A DNA stretch of 34,552 nt from Bacteroidota bacterium. Lineage in GTDB: Bacteria > Bacteroidota > Ignavibacteria > UBA10030 > UBA8401. Below are positions 1,827 to 30,348 of the stretch, in pieces (within the stretch, counting starts at the first letter, position 1; each line of letters starts with the position of its first letter). Location of the stretch: contig JAGVPT010000073.1 of NCBI GenBank assembly GCA_020052095.1, positions 1 to 34,552 on the forward strand, written 5' to 3'. The notes under the pieces were generated by a model that saw nothing but the letters and a program-made list of their open reading frames with translations, ran no database searches and had not been told where the DNA came from. Position numbers and translations under genes: made by a program.

Positions 1827-1870
1827 AAGCTGATGCCATGACTATAAGTCGTGGCATCACTATCGATGGT

Positions 1871-10490: not shown

Positions 10491-10868
10491 ATGTCGTATG
10501 CAAAGACTGTCTTAGTTGTTGATGATGATCCAAACATCCTTTCGGCTTTTGAAGAGTTCTTTCGGAAGGAAGAATGTTCCGTGATTACATCGTCGAGCAC
10601 AGAAGGAGCTATGGAACTGCTGAAACAACACTCTGTCGATCTCATTATCACTGACATCAGATTGAAAGGACTGTCGGGTGTGACGTTTCTCTTGGAAGTG
10701 AAAAGAGTTCGGCGCGTTCTTCCTATAATCGTGATGACAGGCTATCCCGAAGTCATCAGCGAAAGCGAGGTGAAACAATATGGCGCGGACTACTTCTTCC
10801 AGAAGCCGTTGAACCTGGAAAAATTCCGCGATGCGGTAAGAAAGTGTCTTTATCGAAACGTTCGTTAA
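10491..10868 (+). CDS. Stand-alone receiver-domain response regulator
   Basis: VLVVDDDPNIL, LIITDIRLKG, IIVMTGY, FFQKPL: all canonical REC residues. Confidence 0.92.
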   Translation: MSYAKTVLVVDDDPNILSAFEEFFRKEECSVITSSSTEGAMELLKQHSVDLIITDIRLKGLSGVTFLLEVKRVRRVLPIIVMTGYPEVISESEVKQYGADYFFQKPLNLEKFRDAVRKCLYRNVR

Positions 10869-10905: not shown

Positions 10906-12159
10906 ATGAAGAGAATTGTCTTTGGTTTCGTCGCAGCCGCGTTCCTCCTGCTTCTTGTTTCCGAGACGAGTCATGCGATCCCGGCATTTTCGCGGAAGTA
11001 TAAGACGAGCTGCAGCACCTGCCACTATGCGTTTCCGATGCTGAATGCGTTTGGAGAAGCATTTAAGAACAACGGCTACCGATATCCTGAAGGTAGAGAT
11101 CCCGAAATGACAAAAGAAGAACCTGTAAGCTTGGGGTCTGAAGCCTACAAAAAAGTATGGCCCAATGCTGTCTGGCCCAGCGATATTCCCGGCAGTTCCA
11201 CAATTTCGGTACATGCAGTGGGCCGCATCAATTATGGCGCATTGAACCCTGTCAAGTGGGAATTCGAAATTCCACATGAACTTGAGGTATTATACGGTGG
11301 AACGATCGGGGAGGATTTCTCATTCTTTGGCGAGATGGAGCTTGAGAATGAAGTCAATGAAACAGTTATTGCCTTTCCATTTGCACTGCAGTTCGATCCT
11401 GATCCTGTATTGCACGTAAGAGCGGGAATGGTCCATGCTGATCCCACTCCGACACATCTTCGTCTTACCCGGAATCATTACAATATTGCGAGTTTGCGAA
11501 GCCGGAACGGATGGCGATTCCGCGATGAACAGATAGGTCTGGAATTGTGGGGAGCCGGTAATGGTGCCGGCAGCCGCGGCGGCTTCACATATCGCTTGGG
11601 TGTAGTTAACGGACAAGGGATAAGCGATGTGAATCCCCAAAAGGACGTTTATGGAAAAGCAACATACAAAATCGGAGGGTTGGGTGAGATTGGAGGAGCG
11701 GAAGCAGAAGGGAGTGAGGTTTCGGAATTCTACATAGATAACTCAGTAACCCTCGGTGGATTTTTCTATAAAGGCACTGCATCCAAGAGTGGTGCAAAGG
11801 ATGAAGACTTCACGATCTTTGGCGGTGATGTGGATTTTTGGTACAATCGTATGATTCTGAACTGCGCACTAATGCTGATGAACTCTGATATTCCTAATAC
11901 CACTTCGCGCAAATCAATGGCATATTATGCCCAGGGTAACTATGTCCTTTATCCATGGTTGATTGGTCTCGTACGGTATGAGTGGGAGGACAAAGATACA
12001 GAAGAAGATGCTGTCAGCAAGCCCGTTAATGCTGTTATCCCCGGGATCACAGTTGTGGCTCGCGCAAATGTGAAATTTATTCTTGAGTTCAAAAAGTATT
12101 TGGACAAAGCAAACGAGAAGAATGATACGTTCGTGCTCCAAATGAATTTTGGTATTTAA
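10906..12159 (+). CDS. Fused monoheme c-type cytochrome / outer-membrane beta-barrel (Cyc2-like architecture)
   Basis: Signal peptide, IPAFSRKYKTSCSTCHYAFPMLNAFGEAFKNNGYR, then ~340 aa alternating beta-barrel-like sequence. Confidence 0.65.
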   Translation: MKRIVFGFVAAAFLLLLVSETSHAIPAFSRKYKTSCSTCHYAFPMLNAFGEAFKNNGYRYPEGRDPEMTKEEPVSLGSEAYKKVWPNAVWPSDIPGSSTISVHAVGRINYGALNPVKWEFEIPHELEVLYGGTIGEDFSFFGEMELENEVNETVIAFPFALQFDPDPVLHVRAGMVHADPTPTHLRLTRNHYNIASLRSRNGWRFRDEQIGLELWGAGNGAGSRGGFTYRLGVVNGQGISDVNPQKDVYGKATYKIGGLGEIGGAEAEGSEVSEFYIDNSVTLGGFFYKGTASKSGAKDEDFTIFGGDVDFWYNRMILNCALMLMNSDIPNTTSRKSMAYYAQGNYVLYPWLIGLVRYEWEDKDTEEDAVSKPVNAVIPGITVVARANVKFILEFKKYLDKANEKNDTFVLQMNFGI

Positions 12160-12191
12160 GACATGTGCTAACTATTGATGACAAATATGCT

Positions 12192-12229
12192 ACCAAGGAA
12201 ACCGCCCTCTACCGCGCGGTTTCCTTGGT
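12192..12229. repeat. 14-bp perfect stem hairpin ACCAAGGAAACCGC-N10-GCGGTTTCCTTGGT
   Basis: Intergenic, between porin-cytochrome and cupredoxin genes; no U-tract follows. Confidence 0.9.
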
Positions 12230-12274
12230 GTACTAAAAAAAGAAGTACAAACTCTATTTTGTAAGGAAAATTCA

Positions 12275-12865
12275 ATGAAAAATCTCGCTTTTATAACTGT
12301 TATCCTGATGTTTACAATCAATGTATCTTTCACCGGCGACATTAAAGGCAAAGTCAAAGCCAAAGGGGTAAAGCACAGCGGAAATGCTGTTATCTATATT
12401 GATGAGATTCCCGAAAAAAAATTCGACCCACCCAAAAATCACTTGACGATGGATCAGAAGAATCTTGTGTTCATCCCCCATGTGTTGCCCATTATTGTGG
12501 GAACGACGGTGGATTTTATGAACAGCGACGATGTTCTGCACAACGTCTTCTCTCCGGATGGTTGTGCGGAGAAGTTCAACCTCGGTACTTGGCCCAAAGG
12601 ACAATCGCGATCGTACAAGTTCAAGAATCAAGGATGCACACCGGTTCTGCTCTGCAATGTGCATCCAGAGATGGAAGCATACGTTGTGACACTTCAGAAT
12701 CCTTACTTCGCCGTGAGCGAGAAGGATGGAAGCTACACGATCAAGAATGTCCCGGCAGGAAAGTATACCCTCAAAATATGGCATGAAAAACTTAAGGGTG
12801 CTGCACAGGAAATCACTGTAATTGAATCTGGTGACGTGAATACAAATTTTGAGATCAAAAAGTAA
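12275..12865 (+). CDS. Secreted cupredoxin (plastocyanin-like) with C-terminal carboxypeptidase-regulatory-like segment
   Basis: Signal peptide; DDVLHNVFSPDGC...LLCNVHPEMEAYVV Cu-ligand pattern; DGSYTIKNVPAGKYTLKIWHE. Confidence 0.8.
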   Translation: MKNLAFITVILMFTINVSFTGDIKGKVKAKGVKHSGNAVIYIDEIPEKKFDPPKNHLTMDQKNLVFIPHVLPIIVGTTVDFMNSDDVLHNVFSPDGCAEKFNLGTWPKGQSRSYKFKNQGCTPVLLCNVHPEMEAYVVTLQNPYFAVSEKDGSYTIKNVPAGKYTLKIWHEKLKGAAQEITVIESGDVNTNFEIKK

Positions 12866-13097
12866 TTTTTCCGAAGCCCGGCCGAAAACATACACTTTTC
12901 CCGCCAAGACACGCCTGCCCGCCGAAACGCACTCTGACGTGCAGGCACGAGGAAAAACGTTCCCATTCTTTTACTCTTGTCACGCTTTATGTCCTTGTGT
13001 CTTATGCCGACACGAAGTGTTCCTTCGGAAAGGCATCACTTCGTGAGTGGCGATGCTTTTCAGCCGGACTTCCAGAGAGCTGTCCGGTGATGACGAC

Positions 13098-13670
13098 ATG
13101 AATGTGAAAGGATACCGCAGCGCCTTTGGTCGAAGACTCGACTCGTTGAGCGCCAAACTTTTTATCCCAAAGGGATTAATTTTTCTGACCGGAGTGATTA
13201 TACTCCTCTTGATCGTGATTGTATTGAGCAAAGGTGAGAGACAACCTATTGAATTCAATCATCAGATACATATCCAGAATAACGTCGGATGCATCACTTG
13301 TCATCAGTATTATGCTAGTTACACAACCGCCGGGATACCAGGAGTTGAAACGTGCACCAAGTGCCACGAAGATGTCATCTACTTGACTCCCGACAAGGAG
13401 AAGATTCAGAAGTATTATAAAAGTGGTGAAGAGATTCCGTGGAAACTAATGTCCTCCGTTCCGGCTCACGTTTATTTCTCCCACAGTCGCCACATCACGT
13501 TCGGAAAGGTCGACTGTGTGGAGTGCCACGGCGACGTGGCGAGCTGGACAAGACCGCCGCCCGGACCGGAAACAAATCTCGACATGAACACATGCATCCA
13601 ATGCCACCAAAAGATGCAAGAAAGAACTAAGCTTGCCGAGCCATACAACTGCAATCGATGCCATAGATAG
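13098..13670 (+). CDS. Membrane-anchored pentaheme cytochrome c (ActA/QrcA-like position)
   Basis: N-terminal TM; CITCH, CTKCH, CVECH, CIQCH, CNRCH. Confidence 0.85.
   Translation: MNVKGYRSAFGRRLDSLSAKLFIPKGLIFLTGVIILLLIVIVLSKGERQPIEFNHQIHIQNNVGCITCHQYYASYTTAGIPGVETCTKCHEDVIYLTPDKEKIQKYYKSGEEIPWKLMSSVPAHVYFSHSRHITFGKVDCVECHGDVASWTRPPPGPETNLDMNTCIQCHQKMQERTKLAEPYNCNRCHR
13128..13152. repeat. 25-bp dispersed repeat copy 2, within the 5' coding region of the pentaheme cytochrome
   Basis: GGTCGAAGACTCGACTCGTTGAGCG identical to 301-325. Confidence 0.95.
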
Positions 13671-13694
13671 CAAAAACCGCACCTGGGCGTCAAG

Positions 13695-16037
13695 ATGATC
13701 AAACGAAGAGAATTCTTGAAATATGTCGGATTGGGAGGTGCGGGCGTCCTAGGTTCTGGATGGCTGCTGGAAAAAGTTCTTTCCGATTCGGACGTTCAGT
13801 CTCTCAATGCCGTTTCTTTGACTAAGCCGGCCGTGGAAAGTTGGGTCACTTCGATTTGTCAGCAGTGTCCCGGCGGATGCGGCATAAAAGTTCGTTTGGT
13901 CGACAGACGACCTGTGAAAATAGATGGCAGCCCTCTCTATCCGATCAATCGTGGAACACTCTGTCCCGCCGGTCATTCGGGTTTGCAGGTACTTTACAAT
14001 CCTGACCGTCTTACGTCTCCCTTGAGGCGAGTTGGAACTCGTGGGGAAAACAAGTGGGAACCAATTTCATGGGATGAAGCGCTCCTGCTTGTTCAAAAGA
14101 AACTAAGTGAACTTAGAGAAAAGCACTTGTCGCACGAGCTCGTCTTTATGGATGGCGATTCACGAGGGCTGATGTCCACTCTCATCAGAAGATTTATGGA
14201 GGCGTATGGATCTCCAAATCATCTTCGGACGAACCTCAACGCTCATTCTGCCGTTTCCCTCATGCAAGGGGGGTCGGGGGAGATTGCCTACGATCTATCG
14301 AACGCCAATTACGTGCTGAGTTTTGGTTTCGATTTCTTGGAAGCCGAAGGTTCGCCTATATGGCTTGCGAGAATGTACGGTCAGCTTAGACAACGTGCGA
14401 ATCGAACGAGGGCGAGAATCGTTCAAGTCGACACACGATATTCAATCACAGCAGCGAAAGCGGATAAGTGGGTTCCAGTCAATCCCGGAACCGAAGGTGC
14501 ATTTGCATTGGGCATCGCCTACGTGATCGTGCAAGAAGAACTCTACGACAAAGAATTTATCGCGAAGAACACTTTTGGATTCAACGACTGGACGGATACC
14601 AAAGGAGTGAAGCATGCCGGCTTCACAACGCTCGTAATGCGAGAGTATTACCCGGAAGCTGTCTCAAGGATCACTGGCGTTCCCATCGAAGATATTATCC
14701 GTGTAGCTCGCGGGTTTGGTCAAGAACGACCTTCCATTGCATTGAGCGGCAAGGGAGCGACCTCATACTCAAACGGGTTCTGGAACGAGGCAGCGATTCA
14801 CGCGCTCAATGCGCTCGTAGGGAATGTTGGCAAACCCGGCGGAGTTGTTCCCCAGCCTGAACCACCGTTCACTCCTCAAGCCGATATTATCCACGACGAG
14901 ATCTCGAAGAAAGGATTATCCCGGCGGAAAATCTCCGAGGCGGGATTGTACACGAATGAGTTTCCAGCCCAGGTTCTGTTCCTCTATCACATAAATCCCG
15001 TCTTCGAATTTTCGAACACCAAGAAAATTATCGACGTCATACAAAAAATTCCCTTCATCGTCAGTTTCTCATCCTTCGTGGATGAAACCTCGGAATATGC
15101 CGACGTTATTTTACCCGATCATACGTACCTCGAGAAATGGCAGGACGACACCGAAGTTCCTGGAATCGGTTTCCCGCACGTTGGAATTCGAAAACCGGTT
15201 GTCGATCCGCTCCATAACACGCGGCATACCGGCGACGTGTTGATTCGACTTGCTCATGCTCTTGGTGGGACAGTAAGTACATCGTTTGGACATTCAGATT
15301 TTCTGTCTCTCATGAAACACTCTTTTAGAAAGATGTACGAATCGGGTAGTGGTTCGGTGGTTTCGGAAGAGTTTGAAGAATCGATGATGATCTATTTAGA
15401 GAAGCGTGGGTGGAAAGTAGAACGCGCAGCGTCATTTGATGAATTTTGGGGACAGCTTGTGGAGAAAGGCGGTTGGGTCGCCGCTCCTCGCTATCCGACA
15501 TCGCTGCCGGATATGTTCCAAACCTCTTCAGGAAAATTTGAATTTTATCTTCATTCATTGAAAGAAAAGTCTCAAAACAAAGACGACCAGCTTTTGTTGC
15601 CGCATTATGAACCTCCGGAATTCATCGGCTTCGAAAATGATTACCCCCTCTATTTTAAAATTTATGATACAAACACACTGTTTGGAGGAACGGGCGCAAA
15701 TCAGGAAATGCTTCTCGAAATGGTGGGACACAGGTTTTATCAGCGGTGGGACAGTTGGGTGGAGATCAACCCTGAGACAGCGGCCGATCTTGGAATCAAT
15801 CATGATGAGCTCGTGTCGATTGAATCCAGTAGTGGGAGAATTGAGGCAAGAGCCAAGCTCTTCCCGGGTGCGATGCCCGATGTGATCAGCATGCCAGTCG
15901 GATTAGGTCACACATCGTACGGCAGATTCGCCAAGAACCGCGGGGTAAATCCCAATGAAATCATCGCTGAGAAGTTTGATTCCGTGAGCAAGACGGCAGT
16001 AAAGTTTTCGACACGGGTAAGAGTACACAAGGTGTGA
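13695..16037 (+). CDS. Molybdopterin oxidoreductase-family (DMSO reductase superfamily) catalytic-type subunit with Tat-like signal; ActB/QrcB-like
   Basis: MIKRREFLKYVGLGG Tat motif; CQQCPGGC...LCPAGHSG Fe-S motif; full-length Mo-bisMGD fold sequence. Confidence 0.85.
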   Translation: MIKRREFLKYVGLGGAGVLGSGWLLEKVLSDSDVQSLNAVSLTKPAVESWVTSICQQCPGGCGIKVRLVDRRPVKIDGSPLYPINRGTLCPAGHSGLQVLYNPDRLTSPLRRVGTRGENKWEPISWDEALLLVQKKLSELREKHLSHELVFMDGDSRGLMSTLIRRFMEAYGSPNHLRTNLNAHSAVSLMQGGSGEIAYDLSNANYVLSFGFDFLEAEGSPIWLARMYGQLRQRANRTRARIVQVDTRYSITAAKADKWVPVNPGTEGAFALGIAYVIVQEELYDKEFIAKNTFGFNDWTDTKGVKHAGFTTLVMREYYPEAVSRITGVPIEDIIRVARGFGQERPSIALSGKGATSYSNGFWNEAAIHALNALVGNVGKPGGVVPQPEPPFTPQADIIHDEISKKGLSRRKISEAGLYTNEFPAQVLFLYHINPVFEFSNTKKIIDVIQKIPFIVSFSSFVDETSEYADVILPDHTYLEKWQDDTEVPGIGFPHVGIRKPVVDPLHNTRHTGDVLIRLAHALGGTVSTSFGHSDFLSLMKHSFRKMYESGSGSVVSEEFEESMMIYLEKRGWKVERAASFDEFWGQLVEKGGWVAAPRYPTSLPDMFQTSSGKFEFYLHSLKEKSQNKDDQLLLPHYEPPEFIGFENDYPLYFKIYDTNTLFGGTGANQEMLLEMVGHRFYQRWDSWVEINPETAADLGINHDELVSIESSSGRIEARAKLFPGAMPDVISMPVGLGHTSYGRFAKNRGVNPNEIIAEKFDSVSKTAVKFSTRVRVHKV

Positions 16038-16038
16038 T

Positions 16039-17025
16039 ATGACAAGATTGGCCAGCGGATATGGTGTTTTCAAACCCGTGAAGCTTTTTTTTGCAGCAGT
16101 GGTGAGCACGATGTTTGCCGTGAGTGAGCTCCATGCTCAATCGCATGCAGTGTCAAGCGAGGCGGCAGGAAATTATTCAGGTGAGTTTTTCGGATTGGCA
16201 GGCACATCAGGATTGCGAAACGGACGCAACGAAATTCCTGATACAATCGGAAGTAAAAACTCAGAGATGGTCTTGCTCTCGACACTTTATGTACCTGTCA
16301 GTGGCGACATCACTGAGTCGTCCACTTTTGCCGTGGGTGTGGAAATTCCGTATTCCCGGAGAATACACACAGAACACGGACGACAACAAATCTCCCACAC
16401 AGGTATCGGTGACATTGTCGTAGCGGGAAAATACGGGTTTACGTTGTATGATGAGTCACCGTCGAGGTGGGTACCGCGAAAGGCGAAGATTGATCTTATT
16501 GGCAAAGTTAAATTTCCAACAGGCGAAGATCACACCACGGATGCTCAAGGTATCGAACTCCCCCTCCATCTGCAGTTAGGAAGCGGCTCGACCGATGTCG
16601 CTCTCGGTGTCGCCTTCCTTACGGAAACAGAAAAGTATTTCATGATTCATGGGCATGCACTGTACTGGATGAACACTTCGGCGAACAACCGCAAGATGGG
16701 CAATGCCATTAATTATGAGGTATCATTCATTCTAGCAGCTCTTGCCGCCAGTGTAGAACCTGTTGGCACGTTTTTGCCGAAAATTGGGGTGATGGGGATG
16801 CACAACTCGATGGATGAGATGAATGGAATGGTAATGAATAACTCCGGCAGTGATGTGCAGGCGCTTTCCATTGGAGTGCAATCACTGTGGAGCTATGTAC
16901 AGACAATCGGATCGTTCTGGATGATTGACGCATCTTATCAGCTTCCGATTTTCCAAAGGATGACGGGTGTGCAGCCTGGTTACATGCCTTCATTCAGTCT
17001 TGGATTACGAATCTTTGTTAAGTAG
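16039..17025 (+). CDS. Putative outer-membrane/porin-like secreted protein
   Basis: Signal peptide and beta-rich repeats; 1-bp intergenic gap to the upstream gene. Confidence 0.55.
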   Translation: MTRLASGYGVFKPVKLFFAAVVSTMFAVSELHAQSHAVSSEAAGNYSGEFFGLAGTSGLRNGRNEIPDTIGSKNSEMVLLSTLYVPVSGDITESSTFAVGVEIPYSRRIHTEHGRQQISHTGIGDIVVAGKYGFTLYDESPSRWVPRKAKIDLIGKVKFPTGEDHTTDAQGIELPLHLQLGSGSTDVALGVAFLTETEKYFMIHGHALYWMNTSANNRKMGNAINYEVSFILAALAASVEPVGTFLPKIGVMGMHNSMDEMNGMVMNNSGSDVQALSIGVQSLWSYVQTIGSFWMIDASYQLPIFQRMTGVQPGYMPSFSLGLRIFVK

Positions 17026-17033
17026 GAATTGCT

Positions 17034-17726
17034 ATGGCACGATGGGGAATGGTCGTAGATCTCGACATGTGCACAGGCTGCGGAGCTTGCATTGCTGCCT
17101 GCAAAGAAGAAAATAATGTCGCGTACGTATCCCCTGAGGAAGCAGAGAAGGGACGAGCCATCTCTTGGATGCAAATGGTGAACTTCGTCGAAGGTGAATT
17201 CCCCAATGTTCACATAAAATACATGCCTCGTCCCTGTATGCACTGCGATAATCCTCCGTGCATCAAAGTTTGCCCTGTGCACGCAACGTTCAAAGACGAG
17301 GAAGGAATCGTCGGACAAATCTACGAGCGGTGCATCGGCTGCAGGTACTGTATGAGTGCATGTCCGTACACGGTGAAGTATTTCAATTGGTTTGAGCCAG
17401 AATGGACCGAAAGCACAATTGCCTCGATGAATCCTGATGTGTCCTTAAGAAAAAAAGGTGTGGTGGAGAAGTGCACGTTCTGTCATCACCGGCTGCAAAA
17501 GGCTCGTGACAAAGCCCGTGCGAAGGGAATGGAAGTCGTCGACGGTGATTACACTACCGCCTGTGCCGACACGTGCCCCACCCAAGCGATCAGTTTTGGT
17601 GACCTCGATGACCCTAACAGCAACACCGCGCGGCTCTCCAAGAGTAAACGTGCGTTTAGGATGCTCGAAGATCTCGGAACTGAACCGAAGGTATTCTATT
17701 TATCCGAGGGTGAGAAAAATGTTTGA
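17034..17726 (+). CDS. Four-cluster [4Fe-4S] ferredoxin subunit (DmsB/NrfC/QrcC-like)
   Basis: CTGCGACIAAC, CMHCDNPPCIKVC, CIGCRYCMSAC, CTFC...CADTC. Confidence 0.92.
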   Translation: MARWGMVVDLDMCTGCGACIAACKEENNVAYVSPEEAEKGRAISWMQMVNFVEGEFPNVHIKYMPRPCMHCDNPPCIKVCPVHATFKDEEGIVGQIYERCIGCRYCMSACPYTVKYFNWFEPEWTESTIASMNPDVSLRKKGVVEKCTFCHHRLQKARDKARAKGMEVVDGDYTTACADTCPTQAISFGDLDDPNSNTARLSKSKRAFRMLEDLGTEPKVFYLSEGEKNV

Positions 17727-19056
17727 CGCTACCGACTACGAAGATTTTCCCCTCATCGAACCAATAGAGAATACCGGCAAAGCATTCTATCGGACCGTTG
17801 TCGTGTTGGTGGCGGTAATCGTCTTTGCGCTCTTCATGTATGTGAGACAATTACGGATCGGACTTGGCGTCACCGGCTTAAATGAACCCGTGGCGTGGGG
17901 ATTCTACATTGTCAATTTTGTTTTCTTCATCGGTATCAGTCATGCCGGCACGTTGATCTCCGCAATTTTGCGGCTCTCCAAGGCTGAGTGGAGAAGACCG
18001 ATCACACGCATGGCAGAAGTGATTACGGCAATTGTCCTTGCGATCGGTGGATTGCATCCCATTTTGGATTTAGGCAGGCCTGATAGAATGATGAATATCT
18101 TCCAGTCGGGAAGGTTGCAGTCTCCGCTGCTCTGGGACGTCACCAGCATCACTGCTTATTTTACTGCGAGCACGGTGTATCTCTACCTTCCGCTGATTCC
18201 CGATATCGCCATCTTGAGAGACAGAGGCACGAAGCCGAAATGGTTATATGAGTTCTTGTCGTGGAACTGGAAAGGGACAGAATACCAAAAGAAAGTGTTG
18301 GAGCGGGCAATCAGTATCCTGATGGTAATGGTGATACCGATTGCCATTTCAGTTCATACGGTTATCTCCTACATCTTTTCGATGACGCTGCAACCAGGAT
18401 GGCACAGCACTATCTTTGGGCCTTATTTCGTTGTTGGAGCAATCTTCTCAGGTATTGCCGCACTGCTCATTGTCATGATAGCATTTCGAAAAGTGTTTCA
18501 CCTCGAAGGGTATCTCAAAGAGATACATTTCTCGTACCTCAGTATTCTTCTTCTCATCATGTCGCTGCTCTGGTTCTACTTCACGTTCTCCGAGTATCTG
18601 ACTGGCTATTTTGGTCACGAGCCGTATGAGATGAAAGTGTTTTGGTACAAATTCGCCGGAGAGTATGCGCCATATTTTTGGACGATGATCTTCTGTAATT
18701 TTCTTTTTCCCCTGATCATTTTGAGCAACAAGCGGACACGCAAAATTCCGGGCATTCTTGCCGCTTCGTGCGGAGTCGTTGTAGGGATGTGGTTGGAGCG
18801 CTTAATTATTGTTGTGCCGTCGCTTACCAATCCCCGGTTACCCTATCCTCAAGGGGTTTATATTCCGTCATTGACAGAGTGGAGTTTATTTGCTGGAGCG
18901 CTGTCGGTGTTCGTCCTGGGGTTTGTGCTCTTTGCAAAGTTTTTCCCCGTCATCTCCATTTGGGAAGTACGAGAGGGAAGGGAACGTGCCGTCCGAGAGG
19001 TCACGGAACGGATCGAGAGCTATTTGCCAACACCGCATGGTGCAAAAAGCGGATAA
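17719..19056 (+). CDS. NrfD/PsrC-family integral membrane quinone-interacting subunit (ActC/QrcD-like)
   Basis: ~10 TM; GLNEPVAWGFYIVNFVFFIGISHAGTLISAILRL, HPILDLGRPDR; in-frame ATG at 17719 overlapping the ferredoxin stop. Confidence 0.88.
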   Translation: MFDATDYEDFPLIEPIENTGKAFYRTVVVLVAVIVFALFMYVRQLRIGLGVTGLNEPVAWGFYIVNFVFFIGISHAGTLISAILRLSKAEWRRPITRMAEVITAIVLAIGGLHPILDLGRPDRMMNIFQSGRLQSPLLWDVTSITAYFTASTVYLYLPLIPDIAILRDRGTKPKWLYEFLSWNWKGTEYQKKVLERAISILMVMVIPIAISVHTVISYIFSMTLQPGWHSTIFGPYFVVGAIFSGIAALLIVMIAFRKVFHLEGYLKEIHFSYLSILLLIMSLLWFYFTFSEYLTGYFGHEPYEMKVFWYKFAGEYAPYFWTMIFCNFLFPLIILSNKRTRKIPGILAASCGVVVGMWLERLIIVVPSLTNPRLPYPQGVYIPSLTEWSLFAGALSVFVLGFVLFAKFFPVISIWEVREGRERAVREVTERIESYLPTPHGAKSG

Positions 19057-19298
19057 TGGTGATGAATAAAAAAAACATCTTCATAATGCAAATTATCTCG
19101 TTATCACTGATCTGGATTTTTGTCGCCGGCATCAGCGTCTGGATACTGAATCTGTTGAACTTGTCTTTGGAGCTGAGCGACGTTCCTTCAGCCACAATCG
19201 CAATTAGTCTCGTTGCGATTCCAGTCTTTGTCACTATCGCGATAGTGCTGACCTACGTATTCGTTGGACTACAGAGAGGAAATTCTCAAGACCGATGA
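19056..19298 (+). CDS. 80-aa two-TM membrane protein of the complex
   Basis: TAATG overlap with upstream stop; hydrophobic segments. Confidence 0.6.
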   Translation: MVMNKKNIFIMQIISLSLIWIFVAGISVWILNLLNLSLELSDVPSATIAISLVAIPVFVTIAIVLTYVFVGLQRGNSQDR

Positions 19299-22665: not shown

Positions 22666-22669
22666 TCGC

Positions 22670-23170
22670 ATGAAAACACGTAGCTCATTATGGATTACCA
22701 TCACAGGCTGCTGCGGATTGTTTTTGTCAACGATGATTTTCTTCGGCTGCAAGATTCAGAGTGGGAATACTATTGCAGCGATGAATGATTCCACTAAGTC
22801 ATTCACAGCGATTGTTACTTCGGCAAAATATGCTGACAATCTGACGCGAGTCGAGTATAAAGGAAGATCGGTGTACAACCAGTATTGTCGTGTGTGCCAT
22901 GGAGAGGATGGCGATGGAAAAGGGTTTAATGCGTATAACCTGAAGAATTCTTTTGGCGTTGAGCCGGCGGATTTCACCGACAGCACATTCATGGTTAATC
23001 ACACGATGGAGAACATAATGAATGTCGTTGCAAAGGGTGGTAAGAGAATGAACAAGAGTCAGTACATGCCCCCCTGGGGTGAAACGTTGAACCGGGAAGA
23101 GATTGAAAACGTAGTTGCATACATTAAGGTGTTTTCAAGGTTGAAGGCATTGGGAGATTTATCGAAATAG
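22670..23170 (+). CDS. Monoheme cytochrome c lipoprotein (paralog 1)
   Basis: Lipobox-like FFGC; YCRVCHGEDGDGKGFN; distal Met MPPW. Confidence 0.88.
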   Translation: MKTRSSLWITITGCCGLFLSTMIFFGCKIQSGNTIAAMNDSTKSFTAIVTSAKYADNLTRVEYKGRSVYNQYCRVCHGEDGDGKGFNAYNLKNSFGVEPADFTDSTFMVNHTMENIMNVVAKGGKRMNKSQYMPPWGETLNREEIENVVAYIKVFSRLKALGDLSK

Positions 23171-23194
23171 TTTCTGGGTTTCATCTTTGAACCG

Positions 23195-23208
23195 TACACA
23201 ATTGTGTA
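23195..23208. repeat. 14-bp perfect palindrome TACACAATTGTGTA just upstream of the RBS of 23219
   Basis: Direct reading. Confidence 0.9.
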
Positions 23209-23218
23209 GGAGGATTCC

Positions 23219-23452
23219 ATGAGTGAGTCGACAAGAACCGTACTACAAGTAACAGTGGGCGTGTGTTTTCTTCTCGGACTGCTGCTTTTCTTGAACGAGA
23301 CGCGGTCAACGGGGGAAGCACCGGAAACATTCAAACTAATTGTATCGACAAGTGCCGCGTCGATAGTTGGCGGGGCAGTCGCCGTGCTTGCATTGGTAGC
23401 AATGCTGGTTCTCTATTTCTTGGAACGGAAAAGAACTCTAAAACATCGTTAA
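23219..23452 (+). CDS. 77-aa two-TM membrane protein
   Basis: AGGAGG RBS, hydrophobic segments. Confidence 0.65.
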   Translation: MSESTRTVLQVTVGVCFLLGLLLFLNETRSTGEAPETFKLIVSTSAASIVGGAVAVLALVAMLVLYFLERKRTLKHR

Positions 23453-23456
23453 CCTG

Positions 23457-25340
23457 ATGCCCGACCAGATCAAGTTCGTAGACCTCGATTGGCTCGATGC
23501 CAACTTCCCTTGTATGGCGGCGTGCCCTGTTCACACCGAAGCGGGAAGGTACGTTGCGCTGATTGAAGAAGGACGTTACCGGGAAGCGTACCACATTGCG
23601 CGAAAGCCGAATCCCTTTGCGTCGATTTGCGGACGCATCTGCGCCGCTCCGTGTGAACAGAAATGTCGCCGTGGAGAGATTGACCAGCCGATCGCCATCC
23701 GTGCGCTCAAGCGATTCGTGTGTGAACGCCACGGGGTGGAAAGCATGGTTGATCTCGAAAAATTGAAGGAGATTTTCGGGAAGACAGTGAAGAAAAACGG
23801 AATTAAAGTTGCAGTTGTTGGCGGCGGCCCGGCCGGACTCTCATGCGCGCATGATCTCGCCCTTCTTGGATACGCCGTAACGGTCTTCGAAGCTCAATCT
23901 GTCGCAGGCGGAATGCTCCGATTGGGCATACCGGAATATCGCCTTCCACGGGAACTCATTCGACTCGAAATCAATGCCATTTTAAGCCTCGGGGTAGAGT
24001 TGAAAGTCAATAGCGCTATCGGGCGCGATTTTACCGTTGCCGATCTGAAGAAACAAGGGTACCAAGCCGTTTTCCTTGCCATCGGCGCGCATAAGAGTCG
24101 TGACTTACAAATTGAAGGAATCGAATTAGATGGCGTGTTACGGGCAGTAGATTTTCTTCTAAACGTTAACCTTGGCTATCGGGTTGAGCTGGGAAGTAAA
24201 GTGATCGTCATCGGTGGCGGAAATGTCGCCATTGACGTCGCTCGGACGGCTGCCCGACAGGAAAAAATTGACGTTGGTCATGTGACAGAAGTAGCCGAAG
24301 CGCTCGATGTCGCCCGCTCGGCAGTTCGCTTCGGCGCAAAGGAAGTACACTTAGTGTGTCTTGAAGACTGGCACGAGATGCCCGCGAGCAAAATAGAGAT
24401 TGAGGAGGCACGTGAGGAACACATAGAGGTTCACCCCAGGAAAGGTCCCAGCAAAATTATAGGGATAGAAGGTAAGGTTGTCGGTTTCGAGACTGTTGAT
24501 TGTGTGTCGGTCTTCGATGAAAAGGGAAAATTTAATCCGAAGTTTGCACCCGGATCAGAATCGGTGAGGGAAGCCGATACGGTCATTATGGCAATTGGGC
24601 AATCATCCGACCTATCGTGGATCCATCCTGGGGATGGCATTGAGGCCACTCCTCGAAATACTATCAAGACCGATCCCACAACACTTGCAACCACCGCGCC
24701 CGGAATTTACGCCGGGGGTGATGTTTCTTTTGGTCCGAGGAATGCCATTGACGCAGTTGCCAATGGAAAGAAAGCAGCTCAATCCATCCATCGTTTTCTG
24801 TCGCATAAAGACGAACAAGCCCCGGAGGTTCATTTTCACGCTACAGGAGTTGATATTGTCGTTCACGATACCAAACAGTACCGGAGAAATTGGGGATACG
24901 AGAACGAAGATCGTGTACAAATTCCCACTCTGGCGATCGATCGCCGCATCGGAGTTTCCCAAGTCGAGCTCGGCTACACTGAAGAGCAAGCGCGCTGCGA
25001 GGCATCACGCTGTCTTCACTGTTGGACCAATACGATCTTCAACCTAACGGGCGAAGATACTGGAACCGAATGTATTCTCTGCGGCGGCTGTGTGGACATT
25101 TGTCCGGAATATTGTATTGAGCTTGTGACGCTCGATCGGGTTGATGCCGACGCAGCCATGATCGAAGAGATGGAGAAAGAGTACGATGTCGTGCTCCATG
25201 GTGAAAGAGAGACCACAATCGGATCGGTGATGATAAAAGACGAAGATCGCTGTATCCGATGCGGGCTGTGTGCGATGCGCTGTCCGGTCGGCTGCATCAC
25301 CATGGAAAGTTATGCAGTTACGGAGACGGTGGCAGTTTGA
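23457..25340 (+). CDS. GltD-like NAD(P)H:FAD oxidoreductase with two C-terminal [4Fe-4S] ferredoxin motifs
   Basis: Cys-rich N-terminus CGRICAAPCEQKC; two dinucleotide motifs VVGGGPAGLSCA and VIGGGNVAIDVA; CILCGGCVDICP, CIRCGLCAMRCP. Confidence 0.9.
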   Translation: MPDQIKFVDLDWLDANFPCMAACPVHTEAGRYVALIEEGRYREAYHIARKPNPFASICGRICAAPCEQKCRRGEIDQPIAIRALKRFVCERHGVESMVDLEKLKEIFGKTVKKNGIKVAVVGGGPAGLSCAHDLALLGYAVTVFEAQSVAGGMLRLGIPEYRLPRELIRLEINAILSLGVELKVNSAIGRDFTVADLKKQGYQAVFLAIGAHKSRDLQIEGIELDGVLRAVDFLLNVNLGYRVELGSKVIVIGGGNVAIDVARTAARQEKIDVGHVTEVAEALDVARSAVRFGAKEVHLVCLEDWHEMPASKIEIEEAREEHIEVHPRKGPSKIIGIEGKVVGFETVDCVSVFDEKGKFNPKFAPGSESVREADTVIMAIGQSSDLSWIHPGDGIEATPRNTIKTDPTTLATTAPGIYAGGDVSFGPRNAIDAVANGKKAAQSIHRFLSHKDEQAPEVHFHATGVDIVVHDTKQYRRNWGYENEDRVQIPTLAIDRRIGVSQVELGYTEEQARCEASRCLHCWTNTIFNLTGEDTGTECILCGGCVDICPEYCIELVTLDRVDADAAMIEEMEKEYDVVLHGERETTIGSVMIKDEDRCIRCGLCAMRCPVGCITMESYAVTETVAV

Positions 25341-25364
25341 ATTTTGCTCAGAACACAGGATTGA

Positions 25365-25859
25365 ATGATGGATGAAAAGCCGAATACGGAAGAAAAGAAG
25401 GATACCCTGATGACCCGGCGTTACTTTCTTGAATTTGTCGGAGGCGGTGCTATCCTTGTGGCTGCAACCGGCAGCGCGGTTCTCACAGGTCAATTCCTTT
25501 CTCCGAATGTTTTGCGCGAGCCGTCGCTCCGCTTCAAGGCCGGCTCAGTCGAGATCTACCCGCCCGATTCAATTACGCTGGACAAAGAACAAAAAGTCTT
25601 CATTGTACGGGCGAAAGAAGGATACTTCTATGCGATCTCGGCGGTGTGCACTCACCTTGGCTGCATTGCAAATTGGAAATCGGAAGACGACATCATTGCT
25701 TGCCCTTGTCATGGCAGTAAATTCGACAAGGAAGGGAGAATCATCGATGGCCCGGCTCCGCGACCGCTGCAACGATTTGCAATAATGGTGGATGAACAGG
25801 GTCAACTGATCGTCGATAAAGGGGTGATCGTCAGTGAGGACACCATCTTAAAAGTATAA
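25365..25859 (+). CDS. Rieske [2Fe-2S] iron-sulfur protein, Tat-type
   Basis: TRRYFLEFVGGG; CTHLGC...CPCHGSKFD. Confidence 0.93.
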   Translation: MMDEKPNTEEKKDTLMTRRYFLEFVGGGAILVAATGSAVLTGQFLSPNVLREPSLRFKAGSVEIYPPDSITLDKEQKVFIVRAKEGYFYAISAVCTHLGCIANWKSEDDIIACPCHGSKFDKEGRIIDGPAPRPLQRFAIMVDEQGQLIVDKGVIVSEDTILKV

Positions 25860-25869
25860 GGAGGACGCA

Positions 25870-26406
25870 ATGGGACCGACCGTAGAGAGCCAGTCGAAAA
25901 GTGTCGCCACAAAGTCACGAAGACACCAAGGTGTGAAAGAACTTCACTTTTTCTCTTCTTTCTCTTTGTGCCTTGCCTGCCCGCCGCTGCGCTTTGGCAG
26001 GCGGGGTGCCTTTGTGGCTAATAACGGGTTTTCGTCCAAGCTTATAGAAAACTACTGGTGGGAATCCATCCCCTTGGGACAGGCAGTACAACAAAGAGTC
26101 TGCGCAAAATGCGTCGATGGAGACAGGCTAGGGAATTGTCTCTTGAGTGCAAAGGAAACCTGTGGTCTCAAAGCGTATTTTCCACAGATTGTTGAATCCG
26201 TCCTTTCCGTTCAGAGTGCCGCGCTCGACTCCTACGTTGCCGCATTGCGCAAGAACGTTTGTTCCGGATGTCGACATCAGTCATCTGATGGAACATGTTC
26301 CCTGCGACGCTCCCTCGACTGCGGGCTTGACCGTTATTTTCCCGTGGTCGTCGAAGTCATTGAAGAAGTGAATTATGCATTCCACCCTATCACTCATACG
26401 GTTTGA
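25870..26406 (+). CDS. Cysteine-motif protein with duplicated CxxC...C...CGL unit, between Rieske and cytochrome b
   Basis: AAGGAGG RBS; VCAKC-x8-C-x7-CGLKAYFP and VCSGC-x8-C-x7-CGLDRYFP. Confidence 0.65.
   Translation: MGPTVESQSKSVATKSRRHQGVKELHFFSSFSLCLACPPLRFGRRGAFVANNGFSSKLIENYWWESIPLGQAVQQRVCAKCVDGDRLGNCLLSAKETCGLKAYFPQIVESVLSVQSAALDSYVAALRKNVCSGCRHQSSDGTCSLRRSLDCGLDRYFPVVVEVIEEVNYAFHPITHTV
25906..26018. repeat. Palindromic element (GCCACAAAGTCA ... TGCCTTTGTGGC) with nested GCCTGCC/GGCAGGC hairpin inside CDS 25870
   Basis: Terminal and internal inverted repeats; same family as 19427-19499. Confidence 0.8.
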
Positions 26407-26414
26407 GATAAACA

Positions 26415-27125
26415 ATGAAGAAATTACTGCATCAACTATATCGATCACAAGTATGGCGGTCAATTTTTCGGCACGGTTTGCCGGAATCGAACAGGACGCG
26501 TGCCGAGGCGGTTTTCTATAATTTCTTCTTGCACGTTCATCCGACAAAAGTCCGGAAGCGATCGGTCATATTCAGCTACACTTGGGGACTCGGGGGACTC
26601 TCATTCGGGTTATTCATCGTGCTCGTTGCAACGGGTGCGCTTCTGATGCTTTACTACCGTCCTTCAGCGCCGCAAGCATACTGGGATATGAAGGATTTGC
26701 AGTTCGTCGTTTCGTCCGGTCAGTTCTTGCGCAACATGCACCGCTGGGCCGCACACGCAATGGTCGCCGTAGTGTTTCTTCACATGCTGCGTGTGTTCTA
26801 CACGGGTGCATACCGCCCTCCGAAAGAATTCAATTGGGTTATCGGAGTAATTTTGCTCGTCACAACAATCCTCCTCAGCTATACGGGCTATTTATTGCCG
26901 TGGGATCAATTGTCGTTCTGGGGAATTTCCGTCGGGACGAACATGATACGAGCTATGCCCCTTGGTTTAGGTGAGAAGGTATCATTCCTTCTCCTCGGAG
27001 GCAACATAGTCGGCGAGAATGCTCTCGTACGATTTTACGTGCTGCATTGTTTCATTATTCCGGTCGCTGCAATTATGCTGATGGTGATTCACTTCTGGCG
27101 GGTTCGGAAAGATGGTGGTGTGTAA
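26415..27125 (+). CDS. Cytochrome b6-type subunit (N-terminal four-helix cytochrome b)
   Basis: [21 protein letters not shown] and [21 protein letters not shown] heme ligands, 13- and 14-residue spacings. Confidence 0.92.
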
Positions 27126-27174
27126 ATAGCTCTTGCTGTCTGACCTCATTAGATCCTATAAGGAAAAGCTCATT

Positions 27175-27873
27175 ATGGATAAAGATTTCAAAGCGGAAGA
27201 AAATTCTGACGCAAAGAAAGCACCTAAACGGCTGGCTTTCATTAAAACCCGAACTGCTGCGCGAGTAAAGAGCGAAGAGGAAGAAATGGTGATGACCTTT
27301 CCGAACCTCGTGGTGAAGGAAATTATCGCCTTCCAAGTGATGGTTATTGTTCTTGTGCTCATTTCCCTTTTCGTGAACGCACCGCTGGAGTGGATCGCAA
27401 ATCCCGACCATACTCCGAATCCAGCAAAAGCGCCATGGTATTTCCTTGGACTGCAGGAGTTGCTTCATTATTTTCCTCCGGTCGTCGGTGGAGTTATTCT
27501 ACCAACGCTGACGGTCATCGCTCTTATCGCAATCCCGTACTTCAAGATCAACCTAAAGAAAGATGGAATGTGGAAGGAACATCCGCGCCAAACATTGACG
27601 GGCTTTCTGATTTTCGTCGGAATAGTCTCACTCATCTTGTTGCTTTTTCGTGTGTATGCAATGCTCGTCCCGACGATCATGATTAGCGCCATCATGCTCA
27701 TCCCGTACGTCTCAAGACGAGAGGGTGGCATTGTAGGCTGGCTCGGAACCCGCCCGCTTTCCTGGTGGGTCATGACATGGTTTGTCATCATTGCAGTCGT
27801 TCTCACGACAATCGGAACGCTATTTCGGGGCCCTGAATGGAGATGGACATGGCCGTGGCAGGGAATTTACTGA
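27175..27873 (+). CDS. Cytochrome b C-terminal / subunit IV-like protein
   Basis: NPDHTPNPAKAPWYFLGLQELLHYF Qo region; three to four TM. Confidence 0.88.
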   Translation: MDKDFKAEENSDAKKAPKRLAFIKTRTAARVKSEEEEMVMTFPNLVVKEIIAFQVMVIVLVLISLFVNAPLEWIANPDHTPNPAKAPWYFLGLQELLHYFPPVVGGVILPTLTVIALIAIPYFKINLKKDGMWKEHPRQTLTGFLIFVGIVSLILLLFRVYAMLVPTIMISAIMLIPYVSRREGGIVGWLGTRPLSWWVMTWFVIIAVVLTTIGTLFRGPEWRWTWPWQGIY

Positions 27874-27921
27874 GATTGCAGATCGAGCAGCAACTCAAAA
27901 CTTAGAACTTAGAACTCTTCT

Positions 27922-29865
27922 ATGAACAAACTAAGACTCTACTTCGCTATCTCAAGCGTTATCTTCCTTTTCGTTCTCGCAATTTCACCATTGAAGGATT
28001 TCTTCAGTGAGTGGAAAGGGTACCAACATGAGTACAACGGGATGATCAAAGAGATGCCTCAGCGTATCAAGCCGGCCGAAATCGGCATCAAACAAATATG
28101 GGTGAGGAAGCTTGACAAAGTTGACAGATGTAACACATGTCATCTCGGCCTCGAGGAAAAAGCTCTGGCGGGGGCAAAGGAGCCGTTCCGTACACATCCG
28201 CATATCTATCATAACCTCGAAGAATTCGGCTGCACAACCTGCCACGAAGGACAGGGTCCTGCGACGTCGTACAAAGAATCCATCGGAAAAGTTGAATATT
28301 GGGACAAACCAATCTTCCCGAGAGAATACATGGAAGCTTCCTGCGGCAAATGCCACAAAGAACAATTGGTGCGACAGGCGCCGATCCTTTCGCTCGGACG
28401 TAAACTCATTGAAGAATACAACTGCGTGGGATGTCATAAGCTGGAAGGATACCAACGGCAGTGGGTGCCGAGCTTGAATGGAATCGGCTCGAAAGTGAAT
28501 CGTCCGTGGTTGGTCAACTGGTTGAAGAATCCAAAGGCGTACTTCTCAACGACAAAGATGCCGAACTTTCAATTCTCTGATGAGGAAGTAAATATTCTCG
28601 CCGATTTCCTGATGACCTTGACGTCATTTCCGAACAACGCGACCCTTGAACCGCTCCCCTCTCAATTGGTGCAAGTGTCCGGAAGTCGGAAAACGGCGAT
28701 GGAGGAGCTTGGCTCAACACGACTGAGAGAGGCTCGATGCATAAGCTGTCACCCGATAAATGGTAAAGGAGGATATGTCGCAACAGATCTCGGCAAAGTG
28801 GCGAGCAAAGTGAAGCAGGAGTGGCTGTACAACTACATCAAGAATCCGAAACATTTGCAGCCCAATGTTGAAATGCCGAGGTTCCGGTTTAACGAAAATG
28901 AGCTCGCCGGAGTAGTTGCGTATATGAAAAGTGAGTATGTCGATTTCGATATGGCCGAGCCGTCGGCGCATACTCCTGATCCGCAGTTCTACGAAAAGGG
29001 GCTCGCTCTTGTCAAGAAGTACAATTGCAGCGGATGCCATGAGCTTGGAAATATGAAGAGCTACGGAGAACTGGGCCCTGAGCTGTCATACGTCGGGAGC
29101 AAGAAAATGTACGAAATTGACTTCGGCCAATCAGGAATCGATCAGTCGCTTTCGTTATATCTGTTCACGAAACTTAAGTCGCCGCATATATTTTCGTCCA
29201 AAATGAAAATGCCGAATTATGAACTCGGCGATGAGGAAGCGCAGGCAATCGTCGTCGCGCTTCTCGGCAATACGAATGAGCCGATTCCGGAGGAACTGAT
29301 AATCAGACAGAAACCGGTGAGCACCTATGCTCCTCAGGGAGAATTTGGAAAGTTGGTGAACGATTTAGCCTGTTTTGGTTGTCACACAATGTTCGGCCAC
29401 GGACGTGTGGTTGGCACCGACCTCACGCTCGAAGCGAGTATGGCAAAGCGGGAATGGATAGAACACTACTTCAAGGTGCCGTATTCTCTTCGCCCCATTC
29501 TCACGGAGAGGATGCCGAATCTCTTTTTATCCGATGATGAAATCAAAACACTTGTTGATTACATGGAGAAAGTCTTCATCGGCGATAGTCTTGCTATTGA
29601 CATCACCATGAACGAGACAACGATCGCAAAAGGGAAACTCCTCTACAACGAGAGATATGCGTGTTACGCATGCCATCAGATCAATGGCAAAGGAGGCTTT
29701 GTCGGACCCCCTCTTGATAAAGTTGCCTCACGATTACAACCCGGTTGGATTTTCCATTGGCTGAAGAATCCCCAGGCGTACAAGCCGCAATCTATCGAGC
29801 CGAATAATAATCTTACTGATCAGGAAGCGGAAGCCCTTACCGCCTATCTCATGACCCTACACTAA
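27922..29865 (+). CDS. Octaheme c-type cytochrome (paralog 2)
   Basis: Eight CxxCH (CNTCH, CTTCH, CGKCH, CVGCH, CISCH, CSGCH, CFGCH, CYACH); collinear with 20692-22665. Confidence 0.9.
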   Translation: MNKLRLYFAISSVIFLFVLAISPLKDFFSEWKGYQHEYNGMIKEMPQRIKPAEIGIKQIWVRKLDKVDRCNTCHLGLEEKALAGAKEPFRTHPHIYHNLEEFGCTTCHEGQGPATSYKESIGKVEYWDKPIFPREYMEASCGKCHKEQLVRQAPILSLGRKLIEEYNCVGCHKLEGYQRQWVPSLNGIGSKVNRPWLVNWLKNPKAYFSTTKMPNFQFSDEEVNILADFLMTLTSFPNNATLEPLPSQLVQVSGSRKTAMEELGSTRLREARCISCHPINGKGGYVATDLGKVASKVKQEWLYNYIKNPKHLQPNVEMPRFRFNENELAGVVAYMKSEYVDFDMAEPSAHTPDPQFYEKGLALVKKYNCSGCHELGNMKSYGELGPELSYVGSKKMYEIDFGQSGIDQSLSLYLFTKLKSPHIFSSKMKMPNYELGDEEAQAIVVALLGNTNEPIPEELIIRQKPVSTYAPQGEFGKLVNDLACFGCHTMFGHGRVVGTDLTLEASMAKREWIEHYFKVPYSLRPILTERMPNLFLSDDEIKTLVDYMEKVFIGDSLAIDITMNETTIAKGKLLYNERYACYACHQINGKGGFVGPPLDKVASRLQPGWIFHWLKNPQAYKPQSIEPNNNLTDQEAEALTAYLMTLH

Positions 29866-29880
29866 AGAGGTTTAATCGTT

Positions 29881-30348
29881 ATGCTTTCTCTAAAGATGAC
29901 ACGTGATCTTTCTATCGTCTTACTTGTATCACTGCTTCTCCTGAGTTGTTCGCGAAAAAATGGATTGTCGCAATCCTCGTCTGCAAGTCCCGATAGCATC
30001 AATACTGCAGATAGTTCGAAGGCTGGACCGGCAGCCGCCGCTTCAATCCGTCTGACGTATGAACAGCGCCAGGGAAAGCATCTCTACACGAAGTATTGTG
30101 CGGTATGCCATGGTGAAGAAGGAAAAGGCGATGGCTTCAACTCATACAATCTCGATCCTAAGCCACGAAATTTTACTGACACAATCTATATGAGTGCCTT
30201 CAGCGACACACGCCTTCTTGAAACAATTCGTGAAGGAGGCAGAGGAGTAAACAAGTCTCCACTCATGCCTTCATGGGAGGGAAGATTAAAGAGAGTAGAA
30301 ATAGAATATGTGGTATTTTATATTCGCCGCTTTGCAAAGTCTAATTGA
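29881..30348 (+). CDS. Monoheme cytochrome c lipoprotein (paralog 2)
   Basis: LLSC lipobox; YCAVCHGEEGKGDGFNSYNL; paralogous to 22670-23170. Confidence 0.88.
   Translation: MLSLKMTRDLSIVLLVSLLLLSCSRKNGLSQSSSASPDSINTADSSKAGPAAAASIRLTYEQRQGKHLYTKYCAVCHGEEGKGDGFNSYNLDPKPRNFTDTIYMSAFSDTRLLETIREGGRGVNKSPLMPSWEGRLKRVEIEYVVFYIRRFAKSN

Follow-up and report, generated by a model that had tools for sequence, protein, structure and literature searches.

Why should one run of genes encode a putative outer-membrane electron conduit together with two inner-membrane quinone complexes, and in which direction would electrons pass through them? This question is raised by contig JAGVPT010000073.1 of the genome GCA_020052095.1, from a subsurface bacterium of the Ignavibacteria, which was analysed over its full length of 34,552 nucleotides and is called the window below. 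Nineteen plus-strand genes span positions 10906-30348 in an operon-like run. A gene for a Cyc2-type outer-membrane protein (OMcyt) and a cupredoxin gene come first, followed by a left half (13047-23170) resembling the Qrc menaquinone reductase and alternative complex III (ACIII), and by a right half (23219-30348) resembling Rieske/cytochrome b complexes linked to nicotinamide adenine dinucleotide (phosphate), NAD(P). The cluster is real, conserved and modular and is no accident of assembly. The window makes up the whole of contig C174 in a metagenome-assembled genome (MAG) of 3.9 Mb that is 98.8% complete, and an assembly chimera is rejected because the joined gene order recurs in two other genomes, in each of which it is split over two contigs.

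Gene content of the run

The genes of the run, with the evidence on which they were named, are the following.

10906..12159, plus strand: OMcyt, Cyc2-type outer-membrane monohaem protein, 417 residues (signal peptide-like start, Cyc2 motif)
12275..12865, plus strand: cupredoxin (type-1 copper) with a C-terminal CarboxypepD_reg-like domain (ligands, fold)
13047..13670, plus strand: pentahaem cytochrome c, ActA/QrcA-like, one transmembrane (TM) helix (five CxxCH; QrcA model; ActA in PDB)
13695..16037, plus strand: QrcB-like molybdopterin-fold protein (QrcB model, 343 bits, cut-off 440)
16039..17025, plus strand: OM2, probable outer-membrane protein, 328 residues (PF13557, 20.5 bits, below cut-off)
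17034..17726, plus strand: QrcC-like four-cluster ferredoxin subunit (QrcC model, 317 bits, cut-off 400)
17719..19056, plus strand: NrfD/ActC-like quinone-reactive membrane subunit (closest PDB chains ActC of ACIII, 247 bits)
19056..19298, plus strand: small subunit with two TM helices, conserved beside the NrfD-like and tetrahaem genes
19295..20695, plus strand: tetrahaem cytochrome c of four monohaem domains (orthologue in most complete Qrc-like loci)
20692..22665, plus strand: octahaem cytochrome c, c8A, an old paralogue of c8B (37% identity)
22670..23170, plus strand: monohaem cytochrome c, c1A (lipoprotein-like start)
23219..23452, plus strand: tm2, 77-residue protein with two TM helices (AGGAGG before it)
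23457..25340, plus strand: NADox, GltD/Nfn-type flavin adenine dinucleotide (FAD)-NAD(P) flavoprotein with iron-sulfur (Fe-S) clusters at the N- and C-terminus
25365..25859, plus strand: Rieske protein with the Ser of the high-potential type, CHGSKF (nearest PDB chains 9rk4, 9rk3)
25870..26406, plus strand: CysP, 8-Cys protein with a duplicated motif (N-terminal 60 residues an interspersed repeat)
26415..27125, plus strand: cytochrome b6-type subunit (four b-haem His kept)
27133..27873, plus strand: subunit IV-like protein with an APWY motif (five TM helices by hydropathy)
27922..29865, plus strand: octahaem cytochrome c, c8B, standing in for cytochrome f/c1
29881..30348, plus strand: monohaem cytochrome c, c1B (lipoprotein-like start)

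Only two intergenic gaps exceed 100 bp, that between OMcyt and the cupredoxin gene (115 bp) and that between the cupredoxin and pentahaem genes (181 bp). All others are 48 bp or less and four neighbouring pairs overlap, the start of the NrfD-like gene being corrected to ~17719. An initial annotation had described about 19 tightly packed plus-strand genes, and 19 were found, with most gaps below 50 bp. Its inventory was borne out when the domain identities were checked with Pfam and NCBIfam, except that tm2 had been overlooked and the NrfD start had to be moved. Its 28 haem sites, counted by eye, were likewise recovered: with the ferredoxin-type subunit left out the run contains 28 CxxCH sites (1+5+4+8+1+8+1), whereas shuffled proteins averaged 0.07 and never had more than 2. 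A 29th site, CTFCH at residue 147 of the QrcC-like protein, is read as Fe-S ligands and not as a haem site because it lies inside a QrcC-type ferredoxin subunit. Neither sigma-70 promoter-like nor terminator-like sites were in excess over shuffles inside the run, and the sigma-54 promoter pattern gave no signal, with 20 matches over the window where 15.6 would be expected.

The left half is predicted to be an electron-transfer module of Qrc/ACIII type that is a strict member of neither family, and it would not be a molybdoenzyme, because the QrcB-like protein keeps the four Cys of a [4Fe-4S] cluster and has lost the Cys that ligates molybdenum (Mo) in ArrA/PsrA. The alignments show the same for its orthologues. 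QrcB and QrcC are the best NCBIfam matches of this half, although QrcA, QrcB and QrcC all score below their curated cut-offs. The pentahaem protein reaches 98 bits with the QrcA model (cut-off 180) and is closest in PDB to ActA of ACIII (82 bits). The membrane subunit, which is 70-78% identical in most relatives, gives only 36 bits with the QrcD model (cut-off 570), ActC being closer. A recent tandem duplication as the origin of c8A and c8B was ruled out by their 37% identity.

The right half appears to be a Rieske/b6/subunit IV complex of the type described for the anammox bacterium Kuenenia stuttgartiensis, together with a GltD/Nfn-type flavoprotein and an octahaem cytochrome c. For the Kuenenia gene sets Kuste4569-4574 and Kustd1480-1485, bifurcation of quinol electrons to NAD(P)H has been argued from potentials and models (PMC12954380). 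NADox is closest in PDB to 9bov/9bp5 and NfnA, and 9bp5 served as template for the Fe-S clusters of the modelled Kuenenia NAD(P) reductases, including Kustd1483 (PMC12954380). Among PDB sequences the Rieske protein matches 9rk4 (91 bits) and 9rk3 (82 bits) before the next entry (79 bits). These two are taken, by molecule name and residues, as the two Kuenenia Rieske proteins of the same paper, for which +303 and +335 mV were measured (PMC12954380). The potential-raising Ser is kept, and Phe stands where Kuste4569 has Tyr, as in Kustd1480. Subunit IV has five helices in the Kuenenia models too (PMC12954380). The b6-type subunit has a His (His40) directly before helix A. Every NAD(P)-type b subunit examined has this His, the second copy of this genome among them, whereas it is absent from the ordinary Rieske/b complexes of the class that were examined. 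The Kuenenia models contain an unexpected extra haem b close to the dimer interface of b (PMC12954380), and His40, matched by region only, falls in that part of the protein. The identities that the initial annotation gave to both halves are supported. The tm2 gene is kept upstream of NADox in eight other loci; the gap between c1A and NADox had been considered as the scar of a lost OMcyt/cupredoxin pair, which was ruled out as the gap contains tm2.

The CysP protein belongs to a small family with the duplicated motif C..C...G.C....CGL..YFP, other members of which lie at L056:6840-7181 and, in two copies, in L090. The family adjoins Rieske/b complexes and also a NarG/NXR-like type II molybdoenzyme, and could correspond to the gene that is called a "putative zinc finger" in NXR clusters (PMC3578206). 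At L056:7413-14158 (G000:C154), in an Ignavibacteria genome, an NXR/NAR-like cluster encodes a 1181-residue alpha subunit of the type II dimethyl sulfoxide (DMSO)-reductase family, a beta subunit and a dihaem/haem-b-type fusion protein. The N-termini of CysP (25870-26050) and of the tetrahaem protein (19295-19510) carry a related in-frame peptide (TKxQRHKE...SLC...). It is an interspersed repeat that recurs many times in the genome, and the CysP proteins of relatives are without it.

The outer-membrane protein was called Cyc2-like in the initial annotation, and this is supported. The Cyc2 signature has been given as AXPXFAR[Q/K][T/Y] before CXXCH and PXL after it (PMC8406198). OMcyt reads AIPAFSRKY, then CSTCH flanked by the three residues KTS and YAF, then PML, which is a single mismatch (Ser for Ala), and the proteins of several relatives fit exactly. 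Cyc2-type genes of Ignavibacteriales have been reported earlier, by pipeline (PMC8478452, PMC6344600). The cupredoxin has, as modelled, the fold and the His-Cys-His-Met ligands of a type-1 copper protein: H89, C127, H130 and M133 are invariant in 26 of 26 sequences, and the AlphaFold2 model, with a predicted local distance difference test (pLDDT) value of 72, has NirK, amicyanin and plastocyanin as best Foldseek matches.

Occurrence of the modules in related genomes

The conduit genes are part of a cassette consisting of a histidine kinase, a sigma-54 regulator, a single-domain receiver (REC) protein, the outer-membrane protein and the cupredoxin. The regulatory genes that flank the run in the window are these.

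6395..10268, plus strand: sensor histidine kinase (Cache/HAMP/PAS) and sigma-54 response regulator (Pfam; NtrC-like sequence)
10491..10868, plus strand: single-domain response regulator, REC (PF00072), position kept in relatives
30391..33875, plus strand: second histidine kinase and sigma-54 response regulator, after c1B

The REC gene ends 37 bp before OMcyt, and the same kinase/regulator pair precedes the cassette in relatives. Farther upstream lie two glycosyltransferase-like genes (492-3019), the second of which matches monogalactosyldiacylglycerol (MGDG) synthase and GT28 models, and a gene (3321-4007) that by eye looks like a transposase associated with repetitive extragenic palindromes (REP, Y1), for which Pfam gave nothing above threshold.

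The survey covered 391 genomes of the class and 98 of the order. The nearest named relatives are Ignavibacteria/Ignavibacteriota MAGs, several of them from groundwater. An anammox host, which the Rieske complex had at first brought to mind, was rejected on account of these relatives. About 20 genomes of the class hold the Rieske-NAD(P) module, 32 the Qrc-like module and about six both, which are linked in three and on separate contigs in three (G184, G310 and G358). In about 17 loci the cassette precedes a Rieske-NAD(P) module with no Qrc-like module. Six genomes from two other families have the Qrc-like module by itself with the same cassette around it, that is the same regulators including REC, a Cyc2-type protein (with an ARQT motif) and a cupredoxin. 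In locus L019, which is 83% identical to the window over b6, subunit IV and c8B, the place of OMcyt is taken by an 11-haem MtrA/DmsE-type cytochrome (MtrA, 258 bits) and an MtrB/PioB barrel (403 bits), both above the curated cut-offs; MtrB was not found in the genome of the window. The path that the initial annotation proposed, from outside the cell through quinone to NAD(P)H, draws its strongest backing from these comparisons: wherever sequence upstream of a Rieske/b-NAD(P) locus is visible, it carries an outer-membrane conduit and/or a cupredoxin gene, and the MtrA/MtrB swap occurs in one genome.

The joined form was found in three of the 98 genomes of the order, those of the window, G380 and G383, which represent three families. 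The two contigs of G380, C255 and C232, each break off inside c8A, and the two of G383, C212 and C183, each break off inside NADox. In G380 MtrAB and a cupredoxin precede the Qrc half and an OMcyt precedes the Rieske half. Orthologues of c8A (58-61% identity) were found only in G380 and G383. The OM2 gene, between the QrcB- and QrcC-like genes, is present in two of the 98 genomes, both with joined clusters. The Qrc halves of the three joined loci form one clade (100/98) and the Rieske halves do not, being separated by starred branches; therefore one specialised Qrc-like subtype has either remained linked to Rieske-NAD(P) loci or become linked to them more than once. The joined cluster is a rare but conserved fusion of modules each of which normally pairs alone with an outer-membrane conduit. 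The statement in the initial annotation that the two kinds of complex are normally encoded apart is correct in that the halves are usually unlinked; it does not extend to a third Qrc-like clade, whose modules have an ordinary Rieske/b complex as their neighbour in ten loci and are in most cases accompanied by an 11-haem cytochrome. That annotation had also regarded usually unlinked halves as evidence against a joint system. They are unlinked in the class as a whole, but not in the Qrc-like subtype of the joined loci.

The genome of the window has at least three Rieske/b complexes, its own included. The second is of the NAD(P) type (C275, L055), with a flavoprotein 49% identical to NADox, a fused b/IV protein and a five-haem cytochrome c, and lies beside NosZ, which suggests N2O as the high-potential partner of that complex. 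The third (C21, L192:3699-11977) is a Rieske/b complex with an 860-residue octahaem cytochrome c, a cupredoxin and COX1/COX3. Across the class, octahaem proteins of ~840-900 residues are widespread.

Possible direction of electron flow

Qrc and ACIII link periplasmic cytochromes with the quinone pool, and the Cyc2 of iron oxidisers carries electrons inward from Fe2+. Electron uptake and reverse transport have been tied to Cyc2 and ACIII in Ca. Tenderia (PMC5371394). From the predicted gene products we infer a path that connects electrons outside the cell with menaquinone and NAD(P)H, and likewise the partnership of the two complexes, the bifurcation and the direction. We slightly and tentatively favour extracellular electron uptake through an outer-membrane conduit wired to two inner-membrane quinone complexes, because this would explain why both quinone modules are useful together. 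The conduit would consist of the Cyc2-type monohaem protein, the type-1 copper protein and the small c cytochromes, and would bring electrons from Fe2+ or another extracellular donor into a periplasmic pool. Part of them could pass to the O2 and N2O reductases of the cell, and part could be lifted to menaquinone by the Qrc/ACIII-like module, driven by the proton motive force. Menaquinol would then be split by the Rieske/b complex: one electron would go back to the high-potential pool, and the other would pass via haem b, the Fe-S clusters and FAD to NAD(P)+ by means of the NAD(P) flavoprotein, which is placed on the cytoplasmic side. A more demanding version of this, which we regard as rather unlikely, is that the one operon encodes a two-step ladder that bypasses complex I, in which extracellular electrons would go from the Cyc2-type protein and the cupredoxin to menaquinone via the Qrc/ACIII-like module and on to NAD(P)H via the bifurcating Rieske/b-NAD(P) complex, the second bifurcated electron re-entering the same periplasmic pool.

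Several observations weigh against uptake. The 16-strand porin barrel expected of a Cyc2 protein was not confirmed for OMcyt, its AlphaFold2 model (built with four close sequences) having a pLDDT of 28 and not being used. The NrfD-like subunit keeps one of the three quinone-site residues of ActC (D169 is kept, H139 is Asp and D253 is Ile), and b6 has Gly58 in place of the Cys that binds haem c_N. The two sister Rieske/b complexes adjoin NosZ and cytochrome oxidase, respectively, which suggests that such complexes feed acceptors and that the outer-membrane conduit could be an exit. The Ignavibacteriales have been described as heterotrophs (PMC8478452) and RuBisCO was not found in a search of the genome, and therefore it is not obvious that the organism would need reverse transport.

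An outward route is nearly as good as uptake, since the sister complexes adjoin acceptors (NosZ and COX1) and there is no sign of RuBisCO-based autotrophy, and it can be considered a credible possibility. Both complexes would then oxidise menaquinol derived from organic matter, the Rieske/b complex bifurcating electrons to form NAD(P)H in the way suggested for Kuenenia, and the high-potential electron would leave through the octahaem and monohaem cytochromes, the cupredoxin and OMcyt to an extracellular acceptor. The MtrAB replacement in L019 suits export and import equally, and Ignavibacteriaceae are listed among Fe(III)-reducing taxa (PMC6344600). Cyc2 proteins of known activity, however, oxidise Fe2+ (PMC8406198), which speaks against this route. 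A Rieske protein above +300 mV also requires a high-potential acceptor, and Fe(III) minerals do not qualify as such at neutral pH. It is improbable, in our opinion, that the halves are instead two parallel, co-regulated conduit-to-quinone systems in tandem, used under different conditions and with no direct electron handover between the complexes. Such an arrangement would suit G380, where each half has its own conduit, as well as the octahaem and monohaem cytochromes that each half possesses, the occurrence of each half alone with the cassette elsewhere and the two kinase/regulator pairs flanking the locus; but in the window a single OMcyt and a single cupredoxin serve both halves, and promoter- and terminator-like sites between the halves are not in excess. 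That the neighbourhood is accidental or an assembly chimera, with no functional meaning, is very hard to believe: the rarity of the linkage in the order and the scattered Rieske halves would fit chance, whereas the same gene order in three families, the separate clade of the Qrc halves and the restriction of OM2 and the c8A-type octahaem protein to joined loci would not.

Relation to known systems

All components belong to, or lie near, known kinds. By subunit content the right half shares with the Kuenenia complexes (Kustd1480-1485/Kuste4569-4574, PMC12954380) the Rieske protein, a four-helix b6-type b, a five-helix subunit IV, a multihaem c in the place of cytochrome f and an NAD(P) flavoprotein with Fe-S clusters. 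It differs in having tm2 and CysP as well as the outer-membrane conduit and cupredoxin, in lacking the haem c_N Cys and in its host, which belongs to the Ignavibacteria and not to the anammox bacteria. A split b and an octahaem c are also shared with the Rieske/b6/IV/octahaem operon of Nitrospina gracilis, Kuenenia and Methylomirabilis, for which the available part of the report (PMC3578206) mentions neither an NAD(P) flavoprotein nor an outer-membrane cassette. Cytochrome b6f, in contrast, has the haem c_N Cys and cytochrome f where the window has Gly58 and c8B.

The left half shares with ACIII (ActABCDEF; 6f0k, 6btm, 6lod) the ActA-like pentahaem protein and the ActC-like NrfD, closest to it in PDB. 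However, there is no second NrfD (ActF), separate genes encode what in ActB are the fused Mo-fold and Fe-S parts, the monohaem ActE is replaced by tetra- and octahaem cytochromes, and the quinone-site residues are only partly kept. With the Qrc of sulfate reducers it has in common the QrcB- and QrcC-like subunits and the lost Mo ligand, although all scores are under the curated cut-offs and the membrane subunit is ActC/DsrP-like and not QrcD. The Cyc2 pathway (with rusticyanin in Acidithiobacillus and with ACIII in Ca. Tenderia, PMC5371394) likewise has a motif-bearing monohaem outer-membrane protein, a cupredoxin and a quinone complex with a suggested role in electron uptake; in the window one motif position differs, and the quinone and NAD(P) complexes are joined in one gene run.

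The initial annotation had put the cluster forward as an undescribed system. This is too strong for the parts, because Cyc2-type genes of Ignavibacteriales (PMC8478452, PMC6344600), the Rieske/b6/IV/octahaem/NAD(P) complex of Kuenenia (PMC12954380) and the Rieske/b6/IV/octahaem operon of Nitrospina and Methylomirabilis (PMC3578206) have already been reported; the combination was not found described. In the papers searched, which did not include subscription journals or preprints, no description was found of Kuenenia-type NAD(P) Rieske complexes in the class, of their coupling to an outer-membrane conduit or of the joined locus.

The NAD(P)-linked Rieske/b complexes have been discussed as a peculiarity of anammox bacteria, with an unproven role, and to our knowledge the high-potential partner of the Kustd1480-1485 type is not known. 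The presence of a Kuenenia-type complex in about 20 of the 391 genomes of the class, accompanied in the examined loci by an outer-membrane conduit and a copper protein, makes these neighbours, along with the N2O reductase, candidate partners for such complexes. Moreover, the exchange of the Cyc2-type protein for MtrAB at one locus is independent support for Cyc2-like proteins as electron conduits in the class, and the bifurcation idea becomes testable beyond slow-growing anammox cultures.

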